A program made the translations under genes and the position numbers. Below, piece by piece: positions 11,942-48,884 of a stretch of DNA of 64,000 nt (its first letter is position 1; each line of letters opens with the position of its first letter). Origin of the DNA: Clostridium sp. AT4 (GTDB lineage Bacteria > Bacillota > Clostridia > Lachnospirales > Lachnospiraceae); the NCBI RefSeq assembly GCF_001517625.2, contig NZ_LN999828.1, forward strand, positions 822,303 through 886,302, read 5' to 3'. The notes under the pieces were generated by a model. It ran no database searches. It had not been told where the DNA came from and saw only the letters and a list, made by a program, of their open reading frames with translations.

Positions 11942-13792
11942 TCATAGCTTAAGGGTTATGCGGTAATGACTCAGCCAGAAGTTGATCTGGATCAGATAAG
12001 CCATCATCTGCGGGCCTGCCATGAGCTGGCCGTACCAGGGCTTTCCATAGTCAGAGGTCATCTGAAGGAAACGTTCCGTCTTTTCTCTGTCTAAAAATTC
12101 CATAACAGGGGAAGAGGGATCATGGATTATTTCACGCACCTGTTCTGCGAGCAGAGCTTCATAGTGTGTATCATATGTTTTGGGATAGGGGGATTTTCTG
12201 CGCCATAATACTTCTTCGGGAAGCAGTCCCTTGGAGACATGGCGCAGGAGACCCTTTGCCGTATGATCCTTTGCCTTCAGTTCCCAGGGCACATTCCAGA
12301 GATATTCAATAATCCTGTGGTCGGCAAAAGGAACTCTGGCTTTTAAGCCGGAAAAATCAGCGGCCCGATCCATGCGTTCTAAAAGAGTACGCATAAACCA
12401 GTTCAGATTCAGCCAGACAATTTCCCGTTGTCTGGCTTCTTTTTTTGTATCCTCTTTGCAGACGGGGAGATGGGACAGGGAAAAATCGCAGGCGCTTTGT
12501 ACATATTCCTCCATATGGAGCAGTTTAATTATTTCATCCTTCAGCAGCGCCTTTCTGGGCGACAGATCCATCGTCCAGGGAAAGCCGTGAAATTTAAGGC
12601 AGTCTTCTTTATAAAACCAGGGATAACCTCCGAAGATCTCATCGGCACATTCACCTGTGAGCGCCACGGAGCTGGTATTTTTTACCATGGAGCAAAAGTG
12701 CAGAAGGGAGGCGTCGATATCTCCCATGGCCGGCAGATCGTGAGCTAAAACGGAATCTGTAAGGCGGCTGGCTAAAACAGTACTGCTGCATTCCAGATAA
12801 TGATGATCGGTATGAAGGCAGCGGACCATCTGTTCTGCATAAGGACGGTCCCTGGAGGGCTGGAAATCGTTGGACTGAAAGCAGGCGTCATTTTCCGTAA
12901 AGTCAAAGGAGAAGGTGGTAAGGGTCTTTCCGACCGCTGCACATTTCCTGGCGCAGACGGCAGATACCAGGCTGGAATCCAGCCCGCCGGATAAAAAGGT
13001 GCATACCGGTTCAGCAGAGTCCAGCTGACGGCTGATAGCATCGGTGACTAAGAAGGAGGTTTTTTCTACGGTCTTTTCCCAGGAGTCACCGTGGGGATGG
13101 CTTTCCAGCGTCCAGTAGGGTTTTTCCGTTTTTCTTTCCGGCGTAAGGATCAGGACATGGCCGGGAAGCACCTCACGGATGCCGCAGAAAATACCGCAGC
13201 CTGAGGATCTGGCAGGCCCAAGGGAGAAAATTTCGTTTGCGCCTGTAAGATCCAGTTCCGGTTTGATTTCGGGCAGAGAAAGGAGGGAGCGGATACGGGA
13301 GGAAAAGGCCAGCTCACCGTCTTTAAGAACGGTGTAAAACAGCGGTTTTGAACCGATCCTGTCTCGAAAGAGAAGAAGCGTCTGACAGGCTGTATCACAG
13401 ATGGCAAAGGCAAAAATACCGTTAAGCCGTTTTACAAAATCCATTCCCCATTCCAGATAACTTTCCAGAAGGATTTCTTTATCTGAGGAGGATTGAAAGG
13501 AGTGCCCCAGATGTTTCAGTTCTGTCCGAAGCTCGTTGGAATTGTAAAGTTCTCCGCAGAAAGCCACGGCCACAATGCCTGAACCAAAGGCTTTTGAGAT
13601 AAGGCTGCTTGCGGTTTCTGGCTCCGACGGCCCGGTTTCTGAAAGGCAAATGCAGGAAGAGAGCCACAGCCTTGTCTGGCCCTTTCCGTTTTTCTTCAGG
13701 GAATCTCCCATAGCGTTCAGGCGCTCCTGAAAATAAGCTCTGTTGTTTAAGTACACCCCTTCCGGGTGGAAAAAACCTGCAATTTTGTACAT
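11942..13792 (-). CDS. Asparagine synthetase-like protein without the Cys2 nucleophile
   Basis: Class II glutamine amidotransferase fold (about 1-225) plus asparagine synthetase domain (about 240-600). The synthetase pyrophosphate-binding loop SGGLDSS (268-274) and the TGECADEIFGGYPWF stretch are intact, so aspartate adenylation looks possible. Normal AsnB proteins begin MCGI, with Cys2 freed by methionine removal; this one begins MYKIAGFF, with Tyr2 and Lys3. The start is well fixed by GGAGGACAGAGA just upstream, and no in-frame start with MCG exists. It may use free ammonia, or act on another carboxylate. Its 3' end lies 7 bp from the flavodiiron gene. Confidence 0.82.
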   Translation of the reverse strand: MYKIAGFFHPEGVYLNNRAYFQERLNAMGDSLKKNGKGQTRLWLSSCICLSETGPSEPETASSLISKAFGSGIVAVAFCGELYNSNELRTELKHLGHSFQSSSDKEILLESYLEWGMDFVKRLNGIFAFAICDTACQTLLLFRDRIGSKPLFYTVLKDGELAFSSRIRSLLSLPEIKPELDLTGANEIFSLGPARSSGCGIFCGIREVLPGHVLILTPERKTEKPYWTLESHPHGDSWEKTVEKTSFLVTDAISRQLDSAEPVCTFLSGGLDSSLVSAVCARKCAAVGKTLTTFSFDFTENDACFQSNDFQPSRDRPYAEQMVRCLHTDHHYLECSSTVLASRLTDSVLAHDLPAMGDIDASLLHFCSMVKNTSSVALTGECADEIFGGYPWFYKEDCLKFHGFPWTMDLSPRKALLKDEIIKLLHMEEYVQSACDFSLSHLPVCKEDTKKEARQREIVWLNLNWFMRTLLERMDRAADFSGLKARVPFADHRIIEYLWNVPWELKAKDHTAKGLLRHVSKGLLPEEVLWRRKSPYPKTYDTHYEALLAEQVREIIHDPSSPVMEFLDREKTERFLQMTSDYGKPWYGQLMAGPQMMAYLIQINFWLSHYRITLKL

Positions 13793-13889
13793 TCTCTGTC
13801 CTCCGGGCAGGAAATAATTTCAGTAATCATAATATGCAATATACGGCTGCAAATTGACAGAAAACGGGAAAAACGAGAGAATGAAAGTC

Positions 13890-26181: not shown

Positions 26182-26266
26182 AAGGACACGAGGCAGACAG
26201 CCGGGACGGTTAAAGATTCCCCTTCGTCTGTAAGGTTGTCTGTCCATGAACAGGAAAGGGGATTTT
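26157..26266 (+). promoter_or_regulatory. Structured leader with the ribosome site in an inverted repeat
   Basis: AAAATCCCCTTTCC (26157-26170) is the exact reverse complement of GGAAAGGGGATTTT (26253-26266), which contains the ribosome site of the phosphofructokinase gene at 26270. Between them, 26192-26202 pairs with 26234-26244 (11 bp, two G-U). Its loop carries GATTCCCCTT (26214-26223), which could also pair with the ribosome site. This looks like a leader able to hide translation initiation. No known riboswitch class was recognised. Confidence 0.5.
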
Positions 26267-26269
26267 GTT

Positions 26270-27508
26270 ATGGGAAAAAAACGCAATATTATCGTAGGAC
26301 AGTCTGGAGGCCCCACGGCTGTGATCAATTCCAGCCTTGCAGGTGTATACAAGACTGCAAAGGAGAGAGGCTTCCATAAGGTTTACGGTATGCTTCACGG
26401 CATTGAAGGTTTTTTGGATGAGATGTATGTGGATTTGTCCACGCAGATTCATTCGGATATGGATATTGAGCTGTTAAAGCGTACTCCGTCTGCCTTTTTA
26501 GGTTCCTGCCGTTTTAAGCTGCCGGAGATCCATGAAAATCCCGAAATCTATGAAAAGATCTTTTCCATTATGAATAAACTGGAGATCGAAGTATTTATCT
26601 ACATCGGCGGAAATGATTCTATGGATACCATCAAAAAGCTTTCCGATTATGCGATCGTAAAGGGACATGAGCAGAAGTTTTTAGGTGTTCCAAAGACCAT
26701 TGACAATGATCTGGCGCTTACAGACCATACCCCTGGCTTTGGAAGCGCGGCTAAATATATTGCAGCCTCCACAAAAGAAGTGATCCGGGATGCCATGGGC
26801 CTTTCCTACAAGCGGAAAATGATTACTATCATGGAAATCATGGGACGGAATGCAGGCTGGCTGACAGGTGCTACGGCGCTTGCAAAGACAGAGGACTGCT
26901 GCGGTCCCGATCTGATCTACCTTCCGGAGATTCCCTTTGATGTAGACCGGTTTCCGAAAAAATGCAGTGACCTGCTGGAAAAGAAGCCTTCCATTGTAAT
27001 TGCAGTTTCTGAGGGCATCAAGGTACCGGACGGACGGTATGTATGCCAGCTGGCCGGAGGAAGCGATTATGTAGATGCCTTTGGTCACAGACAGCTGGCC
27101 GGAACCGCAGGCTATCTGGCCAGTTTCCTGGCCGCCAAGACAGGCTGCAAGACCAGAGCTGTAGAGCTTTCTACCCTCCAGCGCAGCGCTTCCCATATGG
27201 CCTCACGCGTGGATATCAATGAAGCCTTTATGGTGGGAGGCGCCGCGGTAAAAGCGGCAGACGAAGGGGATTCCGGGCGTATGGTTGTTATCGACCGGGT
27301 ATCGGATGACCCCTATATGAGCGCGGCAGGAATTTATGATGTGCATAAGATTGCAAATAATGAAAAGCTGGTTCCCAGATCCTGGGTAAACCGGGAGGGG
27401 AATTATGTAACCAGAGAATTTATTGACTACGTAGAGCCTCTGATCCAGGGCGATTATCAGCCATTTATGGTAAACGGGCTTCCCCAGCATCTGGTGCTGA
27501 AACGGTAG
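26270..27508 (+). CDS. pfp: 6-phosphofructokinase, diphosphate-type (paralogue 1)
   Basis: Phosphorylates fructose-6-phosphate in glycolysis. The donor-specificity residues point to diphosphate: E. coli ATP enzymes have Gly104 and Gly124 (GGDGS, PGTIDND), while here the motifs are GGNDS (113-117, Asp116 at the Gly104 position) and PKTIDND (Lys at the Gly124 position). MGRNAGWL and the C-terminal basic region match the family. 412 residues. The ATG at 26270 has the ribosome site GGAAAGGGG; an ATG 24 bp upstream is in frame but has no site. The enzyme is reversible, so it could serve both glycolysis and gluconeogenesis. Confidence 0.9.
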   Translation: MGKKRNIIVGQSGGPTAVINSSLAGVYKTAKERGFHKVYGMLHGIEGFLDEMYVDLSTQIHSDMDIELLKRTPSAFLGSCRFKLPEIHENPEIYEKIFSIMNKLEIEVFIYIGGNDSMDTIKKLSDYAIVKGHEQKFLGVPKTIDNDLALTDHTPGFGSAAKYIAASTKEVIRDAMGLSYKRKMITIMEIMGRNAGWLTGATALAKTEDCCGPDLIYLPEIPFDVDRFPKKCSDLLEKKPSIVIAVSEGIKVPDGRYVCQLAGGSDYVDAFGHRQLAGTAGYLASFLAAKTGCKTRAVELSTLQRSASHMASRVDINEAFMVGGAAVKAADEGDSGRMVVIDRVSDDPYMSAAGIYDVHKIANNEKLVPRSWVNREGNYVTREFIDYVEPLIQGDYQPFMVNGLPQHLVLKR

Positions 27509-36177: not shown

Positions 36178-37425
36178 ATGAATGAGGTAAGAGGCAATGT
36201 GATCGTAGGCCAGTCCGGAGGGCCAACTGCAGTAATCAATTCCAGTCTGGCTGGTGTTTATAAGACTGCCAGGGACAGAGGGGCTAAAAAGGTTTACGGC
36301 ATGCTCCATGGGATTCAGGGACTTTTGCAGGAGAGATATGTAGATCTGTCGGAGCATATTAAAAATGATCTGGACATTGAGCTGTTAAAGCGTACGCCTT
36401 CCGCCTATTTGGGCTCCTGCCGCTTCAAGCTTCCGGAGATTTCAGAGGACAGAGCGATTTATGACAGGATTTTTGAAATTCTGGATGGCCTGGAAGTGGA
36501 ATATTTCTTTTACATCGGCGGAAATGATTCCATGGATACCATAAAGAAGCTTTCTGACTATGCTCTTTTAAATGGAAGCAAGATCCGGTTTATGGGTGTT
36601 CCAAAGACCATTGACAATGACCTTGCGGCTACGGATCATACTCCGGGCTACGGAAGCGCTGCAAAGTATATCGGTTCCATTACAAAGGAAGTGATCCGTG
36701 ACGGCCTGGTATATGACCAGCAGAATGTAACGATTTTAGAGATCATGGGACGCAATGCAGGCTGGCTCACCGGCGCAGCTGCCCTTGCAAAGTGCGAGGA
36801 CTGTGAAGGCCCGGATATGATCTTCCTTCCGGAGGTTACCTTTGATGTAGATGAATTTATGCACAAGGTAGCAGAGCTTCACAAGAAGAAAAAGTCGGTT
36901 GTGGTAGCTGTATCTGAGGGGGTAAAGACAGCAGACGGCCGTTATGTCTGTGAGCTTACGGACGGAATTGAATTTGTAGACGCCTTCGGCCATAAGCAGC
37001 TTACAGGAACGGCCCGTTTCCTGGCAGAGAAGATCAACCGTGAGGTGGGATGCAAGACAAGAGCCATTGAGTTTAACTCTCTCCAAAGATGCGCTTCCCA
37101 TATAGTATCCCGGGTAGATATCACAGAGGCATATCAGGTAGGCGGAGCTGCCGTTAAGGAAGCCTTTGAGGGTGAAACGGGCAAGATGATCATTTTAAAG
37201 AGAGTGTCAGATGATCCTTATATTTGTGTCACAGACATTTATGACGTACATAAGGTGGCAAATGTAGAAAAGAAGGTGCCGAGGGAGTGGATCAATGAGG
37301 CCGGCGATTATGTGACAGATGAGTTTGTCAATTATATCCGCCCGCTGATCCAGGCGGAGCTTACGCCTATTATGACAGATGGGCTTCCAAGACACCTGTA
37401 TTATACAGATGTGGAGAAAAAATAG
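36178..37425 (+). CDS. pfp: 6-phosphofructokinase, diphosphate-type (paralogue 2)
   Basis: 415 residues, clearly homologous along its full length to the enzyme at 26270 (same IVGQSGGPTAVINSSLAGVY start, same GRNAGWL). The Gly104-position Asp (Asp117 in GGNDS, 114-118) and the PKTIDND lysine mark diphosphate use. TTAGGAGGTATCCATT is the ribosome site. Unlike paralogue 1, it has a cre-like operator in its promoter, so the two appear to be expressed under different sugar conditions. A long terminator hairpin follows. Confidence 0.9.
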   Translation: MNEVRGNVIVGQSGGPTAVINSSLAGVYKTARDRGAKKVYGMLHGIQGLLQERYVDLSEHIKNDLDIELLKRTPSAYLGSCRFKLPEISEDRAIYDRIFEILDGLEVEYFFYIGGNDSMDTIKKLSDYALLNGSKIRFMGVPKTIDNDLAATDHTPGYGSAAKYIGSITKEVIRDGLVYDQQNVTILEIMGRNAGWLTGAAALAKCEDCEGPDMIFLPEVTFDVDEFMHKVAELHKKKKSVVVAVSEGVKTADGRYVCELTDGIEFVDAFGHKQLTGTARFLAEKINREVGCKTRAIEFNSLQRCASHIVSRVDITEAYQVGGAAVKEAFEGETGKMIILKRVSDDPYICVTDIYDVHKVANVEKKVPREWINEAGDYVTDEFVNYIRPLIQAELTPIMTDGLPRHLYYTDVEKK

Positions 37426-44799: not shown

Positions 44800-45393
44800 A
44801 TGGTTGATAAGATTCAGAAGTGCAAGGATGAAATTGTGACGCGAAAACGAATTCAATTAGGAACGTTCATTAGCGAATATTCTGTCCGTAATAAAAATGA
44901 TTTGAATATTCCTGTATACAGTGTTACAAATAGCCAAGGTTTTTGCAAGGAGTATTTTGGAAAAGAGATAGCCAGTAAGGATAAGACAACGTATAAAATA
45001 GTGCCATATGGTTATTTTGCATATAATCCTTCTCGAATCAATGTTGGTTCAATTGATTGGCAGAGATGTGAGGAACAGGTAATTGTTAGTCCGCTTTATA
45101 ATGTATTTTCCGTTTCGGATAGTATTGATCGTCAGTTTTTGTATTATTTTTTGAAAAGTGATATTGGCCGTCAAATAATTCAAGCAAAAGCTACTGGTAG
45201 CGTTCGAGATAATCTTAAAATTAATATGCTGAAAGAAATGACAATACCAGATATATGTTTAGAGGAGCAGAAAAGGTGTGCAAATATTTTGGATAAACTA
45301 CAGAAGATTATTGAATTTCGCAAACAGCAACTTAATGAATTGAATAATCTTATCCAATCCCGACTTTGCGGTGAGATGGAGGTGCCAGCATGA
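44800..45393 (+). CDS. HsdS 5' half (one target-recognition domain)
   Basis: 197 residues with only one target-recognition domain (about 15-150) plus the conserved central helix (EEQKRCANILDKLQKIIEFR, QLNELNNLIQSR). Full HsdS proteins have two TRDs and about 400 residues. After SR the frame runs into a short unrelated tail, LCGEMEVPA, and stops. The missing half is found at 48264-48884, in the same reading frame. It might still function as a half subunit that dimerises, as is known for artificial or natural half-HsdS proteins. Its stop overlaps the start of the next hsdS by 4 bp (ATGA). Confidence 0.83.
   Translation: MVDKIQKCKDEIVTRKRIQLGTFISEYSVRNKNDLNIPVYSVTNSQGFCKEYFGKEIASKDKTTYKIVPYGYFAYNPSRINVGSIDWQRCEEQVIVSPLYNVFSVSDSIDRQFLYYFLKSDIGRQIIQAKATGSVRDNLKINMLKEMTIPDICLEEQKRCANILDKLQKIIEFRKQQLNELNNLIQSRLCGEMEVPA
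45353..45363 (+). repeat. Direct repeat, left copy (hsdS break point)
   Basis: TCCAATCCCGA, identical to 48253-48263 and in the same reading frame (codons for Q-S-R). It lies at the end of the central conserved helix of the HsdS half and marks the left edge of the 2.9-kb cassette. Confidence 0.75.
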
Positions 45394-46496
45394 GTGCAAT
45401 ATATAAAAAGTTGGAAGAAGTGTGCGAAATCCTCGATTCTCGTCGTGTACCGATTACAGCAAAGAATCGCAAGACTGGTATTTATCCGTATTACGGAGCA
45501 AATGGGTTGCAGGATTATGTAGCAGAATACATATTTGACGATGAATTGGTGCTTCTTGCAGAAGATGGGGGTAACTTCGGATCCAAAGAGCGACCGATTG
45601 CATATCGTGTTTCTGGAAAGTGCTGGGTAAATAACCACGCACATGTATTGAAAGCCAAGCCGCTTGTGAATGCAGATTATCTTTGCTATGCACTTATGTT
45701 TTATGACACAGAGGGATTGGTCAATGGTGCAACACGACAGAAGTTAACGCAGACGGCAATGCGTCAAATGATGATTCCATACCGTAACATGACTGAACAG
45801 TTGCAAATTGCTGATGAAATCAACCAAGTTATAAGGTTGATAGACAAACGAAAAGAGGAATTGAGTCTTCTTGATCAGCTCGTCAAGTCCCGATTTGTCG
45901 AATTGTTTGGGGATCCTGTATCGAATCCATACAGTTTACCAGAAGATACATTACCTAATTTAGGAAAATTCGGTCGAGGAGTATCTAAACACAGACCAAG
46001 AAATGATATTAAGTTGTTAGGTGGTAAATATCCATTGATTCAGACAGGAGATGTTGCAAACGCTGGATTATATATTACATCTTATAGTAGCACATATTCG
46101 GAACTAGGGTTAAAGCAGAGTAAAATGTGGGAAAAGGGTACTCTTTGTATTACGATCGCTGCCAATATAGCAAAGACGGCTATACTGGAATTTGATGCCT
46201 GTTTTCCTGATAGTGTGGTTGGATTTATTGGGAACGAGAGGACAAATAATATTTTTATTCATTATTGGTTTTCTTTTTTTCAAGCAATCCTTGAATCTCA
46301 GGCTCCAGAGTCTGCTCAGAAGAATATAAACCTGAAAACTCTTAGTGAATTAAAGGTGATTGTGCCAGAAAAAAAGAAACAGGATCAGTTTGCTGCCTTT
46401 GTTGCCCAGACCGACAAATCGAAACTGGCAGTGGAAAAGAGCCTGAAACAGTTAGAAATTTTGAAAAAATCACTTATGCAGCAGTATTTTAGCTGA
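45390..46496 (+). CDS. hsdS: Type I restriction-modification specificity subunit HsdS
   Basis: 368 residues with two target-recognition domains: TRD1 about 5-140 and TRD2 about 190-335, separated by a conserved helix (DEINQVIRLIDKRKEELSLL ... SRFVELFG) and closed by a second helix (QTDKSKLAVEKSLKQLEILK). It determines the DNA sequence recognised by HsdM and HsdR. TRD sequences differ from those in the split copy, so it should have a different target. It starts by an ATGA overlap with the half-HsdS, and lies inside the cassette. Confidence 0.88.
   Translation: MSAIYKKLEEVCEILDSRRVPITAKNRKTGIYPYYGANGLQDYVAEYIFDDELVLLAEDGGNFGSKERPIAYRVSGKCWVNNHAHVLKAKPLVNADYLCYALMFYDTEGLVNGATRQKLTQTAMRQMMIPYRNMTEQLQIADEINQVIRLIDKRKEELSLLDQLVKSRFVELFGDPVSNPYSLPEDTLPNLGKFGRGVSKHRPRNDIKLLGGKYPLIQTGDVANAGLYITSYSSTYSELGLKQSKMWEKGTLCITIAANIAKTAILEFDACFPDSVVGFIGNERTNNIFIHYWFSFFQAILESQAPESAQKNINLKTLSELKVIVPEKKKQDQFAAFVAQTDKSKLAVEKSLKQLEILKKSLMQQYFS
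45888..45910 (+). repeat. Imperfect direct repeat in central HsdS region (copy 2)
   Basis: TCCCGATTTGTCGAATTGTT followed by TGG, 19 of 23 positions identical to 48258-48280 in the same frame (S-R-F-x-E-x-F-G). A possible exchange point for the second recognition domain. Confidence 0.6.
46407..46424 (+). repeat. 18-bp direct repeat in HsdS tail (left copy)
   Basis: CAGACCGACAAATCGAAA, identical to 48795-48812 and in the same frame (Q-T-D-K-S-K). It lies after the second target-recognition domain. Confidence 0.8.
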
Positions 46497-47254: not shown

Positions 47255-48250
47255 ATGAAAGAACAGCTGATTACTGAGATTACCCGCCAAATGCTTCCAT
47301 ATCTGGATAATTATCAGATGGAACAATTACAGGAGACATTATCGCACTGTTTTTGGGGAGTGCAGGTTTCGCCGGAAGAAGAGACAGATCAGATAAAAGA
47401 GAAAGAAACAAATTCTGAGTTGTTGGATATGTTCATTTCAGCAAAACGTGTAGAGGGATGTAGTGAAAAGACATTAAAATACTATCAAGCATCAATCATG
47501 AGGCTTTTTTCAACGGTAGATATTCCGGCAATTCGTATGAGAACGGATGACTTAAGAGGATATTTATCGGAATATCAGCAGACCAGTCAGTGCAGTAAAA
47601 GTAATATTGATAATATTCGCCGTATCCTTTCCAGTTTTTTTGCATGGTTAGAGGATGAGAATTATATATTGAAAAGTCCGGTACGCCGGATTCATAAGAT
47701 AAAATCAAACCAGCCGGTAAAAGAAACGTACACAGATGAATCTCTGGAAATCATGAGGGATCAATGCGGGTGTTTGAGGGATCTGGCATTGATTGATTTG
47801 CTGTCATCAACGGGGATGCGAGTAGGTGAACTGGTACGATTAAACAGATCTGACATAGATTTTGAAAATCGGGAATGCGTTGTATTTGGTAAGGGAAGCA
47901 AAGAACGTCCCGTATATTTTGATGCAAGAACGAAAATTCATTTGAAAAATTATCTTGATAGTCGAACAGATAAAAATCCTGCGCTGTTTGTGTCTTTGAT
48001 TCAACCATTTAAGCGGTTAGAAATCAGTGGAGTTGAGATACGTCTGCGTAATTTGGGAAGGAAACTGGGAATTACAAAAGTACATCCTCATAAGTTCCGG
48101 CGAACACTGGCAACACGTGCTATTGACAAGGGAATGCCGATTGAACAGGTACAAAGATTGCTTGGACATGCTAAGATAGATACCACAATGCAGTACGCAA
48201 TGGTAAATCAAAATAATGTTAAAATCTCTCATAGAAAGTATATAGGGTGA
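47255..48250 (+). CDS. Tyrosine recombinase (XerC/D-like integrase)
   Basis: 331 residues. The SAM-like core-binding domain (about 50-145) and catalytic domain (about 160-331) carry Arg189 (TGMRVGEL), Lys in FGKGSKERP, His279-x-x-Arg282 (HKFR), His305 (LLGHAKIDTTMQYA) and the nucleophile Tyr314. Such recombinases beside hsdS genes are known to invert or shuffle specificity segments in other bacteria. Here its stop is followed after 2 bp by the right copy of the 11-bp repeat, as an integrase next to its attachment site. AAAGGAG is the ribosome site. No phage structural genes are near. Confidence 0.92.
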   Translation: MKEQLITEITRQMLPYLDNYQMEQLQETLSHCFWGVQVSPEEETDQIKEKETNSELLDMFISAKRVEGCSEKTLKYYQASIMRLFSTVDIPAIRMRTDDLRGYLSEYQQTSQCSKSNIDNIRRILSSFFAWLEDENYILKSPVRRIHKIKSNQPVKETYTDESLEIMRDQCGCLRDLALIDLLSSTGMRVGELVRLNRSDIDFENRECVVFGKGSKERPVYFDARTKIHLKNYLDSRTDKNPALFVSLIQPFKRLEISGVEIRLRNLGRKLGITKVHPHKFRRTLATRAIDKGMPIEQVQRLLGHAKIDTTMQYAMVNQNNVKISHRKYIG

Positions 48251-48263: not shown

Positions 48264-48280
48264 TTTATAGAGATGTTTGG
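48258..48280 (+). repeat. Imperfect direct repeat in HsdS fragment (copy 3)
   Basis: TCCCGATTTATAGAGATGTT followed by TGG, 19 of 23 positions identical to 45888-45910. Confidence 0.6.
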
Positions 48281-48884
48281 TTCAGGTAGATATCCAACGG
48301 TAATAGCCTCAGAAGTTTGTGATTTTATAACTAAAGGAACAACACCACCTACAGGAGAAATCACTGAAAAATATGAAATTGGAATGATTCCGTATTTGAA
48401 AGTGTATAACTTAAGTTTTACTGGAGAATTGTTGTTTGATAATATGCCGCAATATATTTCGGCTGATACCCATAATAAGCAGTTAGCACGTTCCAAAGTT
48501 TTACCTAATGACGTGCTAATGAATATTGTTGGCCCACCATTAGGAAAATTTTCTCTTGTTACTGATGAATTTTCTGAATGGAATATAAATCAAGCAATTG
48601 CAATTTTCAGAGCCAAAGACAGGGTTCTTCCAAGATACCTTATGGCAGCACTTATGCAACCGAATGTATTACGGCCTTTTTTGGAACAAGCAGTTGGTAT
48701 TCGACAACTCAATCTGAGTCTTGAACAATGCAGAAATCTCGAATTTCCATTGCCTCCGATAGAAGAACAAAGAGCTTTTGTGGAGCTTTCGGAACAGACC
48801 GACAAATCGAAATATCTATTTTACTGCTTAGAATATATACGCAATAATTTCAACGCAATGCTAGAATTTTATATGGGGGGATAA
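48273..48884 (+). pseudogene. HsdS 3' fragment (second recognition domain)
   Basis: 203 residues starting inside the conserved central motif (SRFIEMFG begins just before the ATG) and continuing through one target-recognition domain (about 5-165) and the closing helix (EQTDKSKYLFYCLEYI). There is no ribosome site, and an in-frame stop (48243-48245) lies upstream, so it is probably silent. Joined to 44800-45363 at the shared repeat it would give a 394-codon HsdS. The C-terminal helix differs from that of the complete hsdS (YLFYCLEYIRNNFNAMLEF). Confidence 0.82.
48795..48812 (+). repeat. 18-bp direct repeat in HsdS tail (right copy)
   Basis: Second copy of the sequence at 46407-46424, in the same frame. 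Confidence 0.8.

Follow-up and report, generated by a model that had tools for sequence, protein, structure and literature searches.

The closest described systems

In human asparagine synthetase (ASNS), the reference for residue mapping throughout the present work, the glutamine pocket is built from Arg48, Val52, Asn74, Gly75, Glu76 and Asp96, and Glu414, an absolutely conserved residue of the synthetase domain, comes within 5 Å of this pocket (PMC6748925). Asn74, Glu76, Arg142 and Glu414 constitute the network gating the ammonia tunnel, of which Val141 is a residue; the enzyme is also able to use ammonia directly, with a kcat close to that with glutamine, and variants of the tunnel gate keep their ammonia activity (PMC11615228).

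The hydroxyamidotransferase TsnB9 (PDB 7ylz), the nearest solved relative of the protein described here (profile score 555 bits; TM 0.86/0.92; 29% identity in the structural alignment), keeps its Cys (MCGVAG), unlike our protein, and no hydroxamate pathway is apparent among the neighbours of our gene. AsnO, the mother-cell asparagine synthetase of Bacillus subtilis, is likewise described as AsnB-type and sporulation-linked; no report of Cys-less forms was found. β-lactam synthetase and the carbapenam synthetase CarA have the AsnB fold with a non-functional glutaminase domain; they share only weak sequence similarity with our protein (E about 1e-5), stand in a different context, and perform a ring closure where an attack by ammonia is proposed below. 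To our knowledge, loss of the glutaminase half in AsnB-type enzymes is known mainly from single cases. The amidotransferases acting on meso-diaminopimelate (mDAP), namely AsnB of B. subtilis and Listeria and LtsA, are AsnB-type enzymes with an acceptor other than aspartate, mDAP itself belonging to the pathway from which dipicolinate is also supplied. An extra loop is a further mark of these amidotransferases. The mDAP-amidating AsnB enzymes are devoid of the Asp-binding D and R (PMC8554201), the second of which is kept in our family. Finally, NAD synthetases may take their nitrogen from glutamine or from ammonia (PMC3376133), but their glutaminase domain is nitrilase-like and unrelated to the one considered here.

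The subject of the present analysis is a gene in a 64,000-nucleotide stretch of DNA (hereafter the window) from a gut bacterium of the genus Enterocloster, whose genome comprises 3.41 Mb in 7 contigs and whose nearest genus mate found was E. alcoholdehydrogenati. Judging from sequence and genomic context, its product is probably an AsnB-type amide synthetase turned ammonia-dependent. It is a member of a family of clostridial proteins associated with spore formation and with dipicolinate synthase, and is probably made in the mother cell.

Gene, reading frame and start codon

The gene and its start have the following features:

11942-13792, minus strand: AsnB-like protein of 616 amino acids starting MYKIAGFF, intact open reading frame, stop codon at 11942-11944
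13800-13804, minus strand: ribosome-binding site GGAGG, upstream of the ATG
13787-13789, minus strand: Tyr2 codon (TAC) in place of the catalytic Cys

An earlier sequence-only reading had described this frame, its MYKIAGFF start, a well-placed ribosome site and a Tyr instead of the catalytic Cys2; all of these hold, and the strand, left unstated there, is the minus one. The same reading had named an upstream start giving MCGI as one of the findings that would overturn it; only 9 open codons precede the ATG, with neither a further ATG nor MCGI among them. The codons of residues 2 and 3 are TAC (Tyr) and AAA (Lys), so that several base changes would be needed to obtain a Cys-Gly pair, and a one-base error as the source of the lost MCGI was rejected, no such change restoring it. 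Since, moreover, the missing glutaminase motif is absent from the other reading frames of the gene, and residues 1-120 align with the sister protein within one frame, an artefact is unlikely: sequencing error, hidden frameshift and upstream MCGI start are ruled out by codons, frames and alignment. The Enterocloster relatives having an intact N-terminus start with MCGI, and the Tyr2 substitution is thus derived.

Membership of the AsnB-type superfamily is supported by matches exceeding the curated cut-offs for both Asn_synthase (2e-77, residues 247-605) and GATase_7 (1e-30, covering residues 71-170 only) in Pfam, and by a score of 360 bits, against a cut-off of 267, with the NCBIfam asparagine synthase model. 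Pfam and fold searches returned AsnB-type domains only, an AsnA fold not being found.

What was lost in the glutaminase half

The N-terminal half carries the following features:

13148-13792, minus strand: class II glutaminase domain, N-terminal (residues about 1-215), degenerate active site, fold predicted to be kept
13583-13789, minus strand: most decayed stretch, residues 2-70 (positions of Cys2, RGPD and the Gln-binding Arg)
13556-13558, minus strand: Cys79 replacing Asn74 of human ASNS (glutamine pocket and gate), Asn in 146/146 relatives with Cys2
13349-13351, minus strand: Ser148 replacing a tunnel-lining hydrophobic residue (human Val141), by alignment

When the protein is compared with 75 relatives, 23 of 61 highly conserved positions are changed in the N-terminal domain; for the C-terminal domain the figure is 8 of 113, and most of the intact relatives show 0-4 changes in either domain. 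Tyr2 is accompanied by about 20 further losses of conserved residues in the glutaminase domain. The lost positions include Cys2, Gly3, the Arg and Asp of RGPD, the His/Arg of the glutamine site, the equivalent of human Asn74, and the conserved SE-K motif, with the reservation that residue mapping within 30-70 depends on the alignment, while positions 79, 148 and 484 lie in well aligned blocks. Of the residues that bind glutamine in human ASNS, Arg48 and Asn74 have no equivalent here; Gly75, Glu76 and Asp96 are present, as Gly80, Glu81 and Asp104. Over residues 2-70, identity to outgroups is 0.17-0.29 for the window protein and 0.44-0.52 for its sister; outside this stretch the drop in identity is far smaller. 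The expectation of a dead glutaminase half is thus supported well beyond Cys2, as the Gln-binding Arg, Asn74, RGPD and, on the synthetase side, Glu414 have all gone with it.

The synthetase half and the predicted fold

Along the C-terminal half the features are:

11945-13147, minus strand: ATP-pyrophosphatase/amide synthetase domain, C-terminal (residues about 216-616), conserved
12971-12991, minus strand: PP-loop SGGLDSS, residues 268-274
12638-12652, minus strand: E381-C-A-D384-E385, equivalents of human Glu364/Asp367/Glu368 in the synthetase site (roles: PMC6748925)
12341-12343, minus strand: Lys484 replacing Glu414, which faces the glutamine pocket from the synthetase side, by alignment
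12194-12196, minus strand: Lys533, equivalent of the human catalytic Lys466, by alignment

The PP-loop, which had been read as intact, is so indeed, and with the two-domain fold, the Glu364/Asp367/Glu368 cluster and the Lys466 equivalent, all found in the window protein, it makes up the likeness to AsnB and human ASNS (TIGR01536). What sets the protein apart from these enzymes is the missing Cys nucleophile, the missing Gln-binding Arg and Asn and Glu414, the divergence of residues 2-70, and the position of human Asp400, which appears unconserved in the family (Thr or Leu in the members compared, within an ambiguous alignment). The Asp-binding Arg403 is kept as R473. The domain is not unchanged: positions 260, 478, 479 and 484 are altered, D260 and M479 being lost along with other conserved synthetase-domain positions.

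In comparison with the sister protein, dN is 0.52 (dS 1.64) over residues 2-70 and 0.21 (dS 1.77) over residues 216-612, which gives a low dN/dS for the synthetase domain; dS is saturated, and these ratios are thus indicative only. The C-terminal domain has evolved faster on the window branch than on that of the sister (0.35 vs 0.15 changes per column; 0.45 vs 0.13 in another estimate), and both this rate and the loss of D260 and M479 might equally reflect a changed acceptor or the onset of decay.

An AlphaFold2 model of the protein is confident throughout (mean pLDDT 91, pTM 0.91) and aligns along its length with TsnB9, E. coli AsnB and human ASNS; Foldseek ranks TsnB9 first, in agreement with the family profile search, followed by E. 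coli AsnB, human ASNS, β-lactam synthetase and CarA. On the strength of the model and of these matches, the glutaminase fold appears to be retained as a scaffold.

Recurrent loss across the family

The question whether relatives share the substitution, raised by the sequence-only reading, proved decisive: most keep Cys2, and several separate lineages have lost it. A search of 299 Lachnospiraceae genomes gave 160 usable family members, many of them metagenome-assembled; Cys2 is present in 146, all of which keep Asn79 and Glu484, and absent in 14, all of which have lost both (Asn79 to Asp in 7). The residue replacing Cys2 is Ser in twelve (L032, L038, L041, L042, L116, L118, L144, L145, L152, L179, L183 and L184), one member (L034) has a shortened N-terminus, and Tyr2 is unique to the window protein; a Tyr common to the whole lineage is accordingly rejected. 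In the synthetase site of these 14 proteins, the PP-loop Asp and Ser, E381, D384, E385 and R473 are kept without exception, and Lys533 in 13, with Arg in the remaining one.

On a tree of the C-terminal domain (positions 260, 261, 478, 479 and 484 removed; quick search, SH-aLRT only), the loss of Cys2 takes 8 changes, at least 6 of them forced by well supported branches, and the window protein is sister to that of E. alcoholdehydrogenati (support 99) within the dpaAB-linked family tree. In L145 and L152 the losses among the glutaminase-side marks that were compared are confined to Cys2, Asn79 and Glu484; their retention of Arg54, His52 and Arg35 suggests, for these two lineages, an order of loss in which the nucleophile, the oxyanion/gate Asn and the facing Glu go first and the rest later. 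The best reading of this pattern is that a glutamine-dependent amide synthetase has been converted repeatedly into an ammonia-dependent one. The family would thus offer at least six natural repeats of glutaminase loss with close glutamine-dependent sisters, in which one could test the sequence of the losses, how the glutaminase site is coupled to the tunnel gate (Asn74/Glu414) and what it costs to give up channelled ammonia.

Two candidates for further losses, L155 and L191, were set aside as their frames are broken or truncated. In a Blautia sp. metagenome-assembled genome, the gene at L034 6001-7617 is without about the first 60 glutaminase residues, keeps the synthetase site and adjoins dpaAB. 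Single in-frame stops occur in the matched region of L161 (G067), L183 (G103), L130 (G285) and L181 (G297), possibly because the copies are decaying, or through the alignment or errors of assembly. A scan of plasmids returned only distant relatives, 33-40% identical; those on plasmids or secondary replicons of Paenibacillus cellulosilyticus (NZ_CP054613.1:103347-105137) and Burkholderia stagnalis (NZ_CP156686.1:1017712-1019493), both about 40% identical, rank above Streptomyces relatives.

Association with dipicolinate synthase and sporulation

Of 38 loci whose neighbouring genes were clustered, 10 have dpaA and dpaB, as named by NCBIfam, beside the family gene, and two distinct arrangements occur among them. 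Among the 299 Lachnospiraceae genomes, 78 have both the asn gene and dpaA, 12 asn only, 10 dpaA only and 199 neither (P 4e-47; odds ratio about 129), and the two genes lie within 3 kb of each other in 52 of the 78. If only genomes with spoIVA are counted, and dpaB is consulted where the case is unclear, the numbers are 79 with both, 10 with asn only, 8 with dpaA only and 97 with neither (P 3e-33). Both tests treat related genomes as independent, and the P values consequently overstate the evidence; the two arrangements and the persistence of the link among spore formers nevertheless support a real association. In the window genome, dpaB and dpaA (G000:C7:621936-623154) are not adjacent to the gene, and spoIVA is present. 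A literature search for dpaA/dpaB together with asparagine synthetase found nothing.

Upstream of the gene lies one further feature, found in a promoter scan based on a sigma-E/K consensus:

13829-13857, minus strand: candidate mother-cell sigma-E/K-like promoter TCAATTT-N14-CATATTAT, spaced from the ATG just as its counterparts are in several relatives

Alone this candidate is weak (shuffle P 0.1), and its weight comes from agreeing positions only: a sigma-E/K-like site whose -35 element lies 54-65 nt upstream of the start codon is found in the window and in L013, L016, L018, L022, L023, L025, L029, L032, L038 and L041, while none is found in the Enterocloster relatives L006 and L007, nor in L008. 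Taken together, these observations suggest that sporulating cells probably produce the protein in the mother cell. The close association with dpaAB also points to a further step in clostridial spore formation, of relevance to gut commensals. It is possible, although doubtful when taken as a whole, that the family represents a clostridial mother-cell amide synthetase working alongside dipicolinate synthase on a spore-specific acceptor, and that at least six of its lineages became ammonia-dependent as nucleophile, Asn74 and Glu414 were dismantled in the same order.

Source of nitrogen and nature of the acceptor

In the mechanism that we propose, the N-terminal domain would keep its fold and no longer bind or split glutamine, the entry of the internal ammonia tunnel having been dismantled along with the glutamine site; the C-terminal domain would activate a carboxylate with ATP, yielding an acyl-AMP and PPi, and free ammonia would attack the acyl-AMP directly at the synthetase site. 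Both the nitrogen source and the acyl-AMP chemistry are here inferred from residues; a protein that has lost the glutaminase pocket and the gate but kept its synthetase site would most simply use ammonia directly. The acceptor may be aspartate or another carboxylate such as mDAP: the acidic cluster for an amino-acid substrate and the Asp-binding Arg are kept, the Asp400 position apparently is not. Our search of the literature found no biochemical test or enzyme assay of any family member. Asparagine supply need not depend on this gene, as the genome carries a second AsnB (C7:1144200, 539 codons) that starts MCSIMGYC, has RGPD and retains its glutaminase residues. At locus L004 (G000:C5:256540-256659), a 475-codon frame also gives a weak match to Asn_synthase (24.8 bits).

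A different chemistry, in which the synthetase domain couples the carboxylate to some other amine or forms an amide within one molecule, as in the β-lactam and carbapenam synthetases, appears improbable. The structural kinship with β-lactam synthetase and CarA, the naming of the nearest solved relative as a hydroxyamidotransferase and not a classical AsnB, and the changes at positions 260, 478, 479 and 484 would all accord with it; yet the acidic cluster that holds the amino acid in ASNS is fully kept, the synthetase site is the same in the close sister, whose glutamine machinery is complete, and no biosynthetic cluster was recognised among the genes neighbouring the window gene.

We regard as still less probable a relaxed decay in which the gene is losing all function, the glutaminase half first. 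The faster window branch is what such decay would produce, and Cys2 is lost more often where the genome lacks dpaA than where it has it (4/10 vs 5/80, P 0.008, uncorrected for relatedness, with three of the four falling in one clade), but the 616-codon frame is intact, the C-terminal domain has a low dN/dS, the synthetase catalytic residues survive in the Cys-less proteins with the one Arg for Lys533, and the organism retains dpaAB and spoIVA.

Amidation with ammonia from the glutaminase of another protein, a partner or the organism's own canonical AsnB, docked at the dead domain, is very unlikely in spite of the glutaminase fold kept in the model and the other glutaminase-bearing enzymes of the genome: the gene's neighbours, a flavodiiron-type protein and a MobA-MobB fusion, include no glutaminase-only gene, the other GATase_7 matches over the cut-off sit in frames of 485-616 codons and look like complete enzymes of their own, and the loss of Glu484 and of tunnel residue 148 speaks against ammonia channelled by the old route. 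Of the three outcomes envisaged by the sequence-only reading (ammonia, nitrogen from another subunit, different chemistry), use of ammonia would thus fit best, given the intact synthetase site, the lack of a glutaminase-only neighbour and the length of the other GATase_7 frames.

Other features of the window

In a type I restriction-modification locus (45390-46496, 47255-48250 and 48273-48884), a tyrosine recombinase lies between two hsdS-like genes, as it does in phase-variable systems; no inverted repeats of note were found between the two hsdS genes. The window also contains a pair of closely similar 6-phosphofructokinase-like genes (26246-27508 and 36178-37425), about 9 kb apart.
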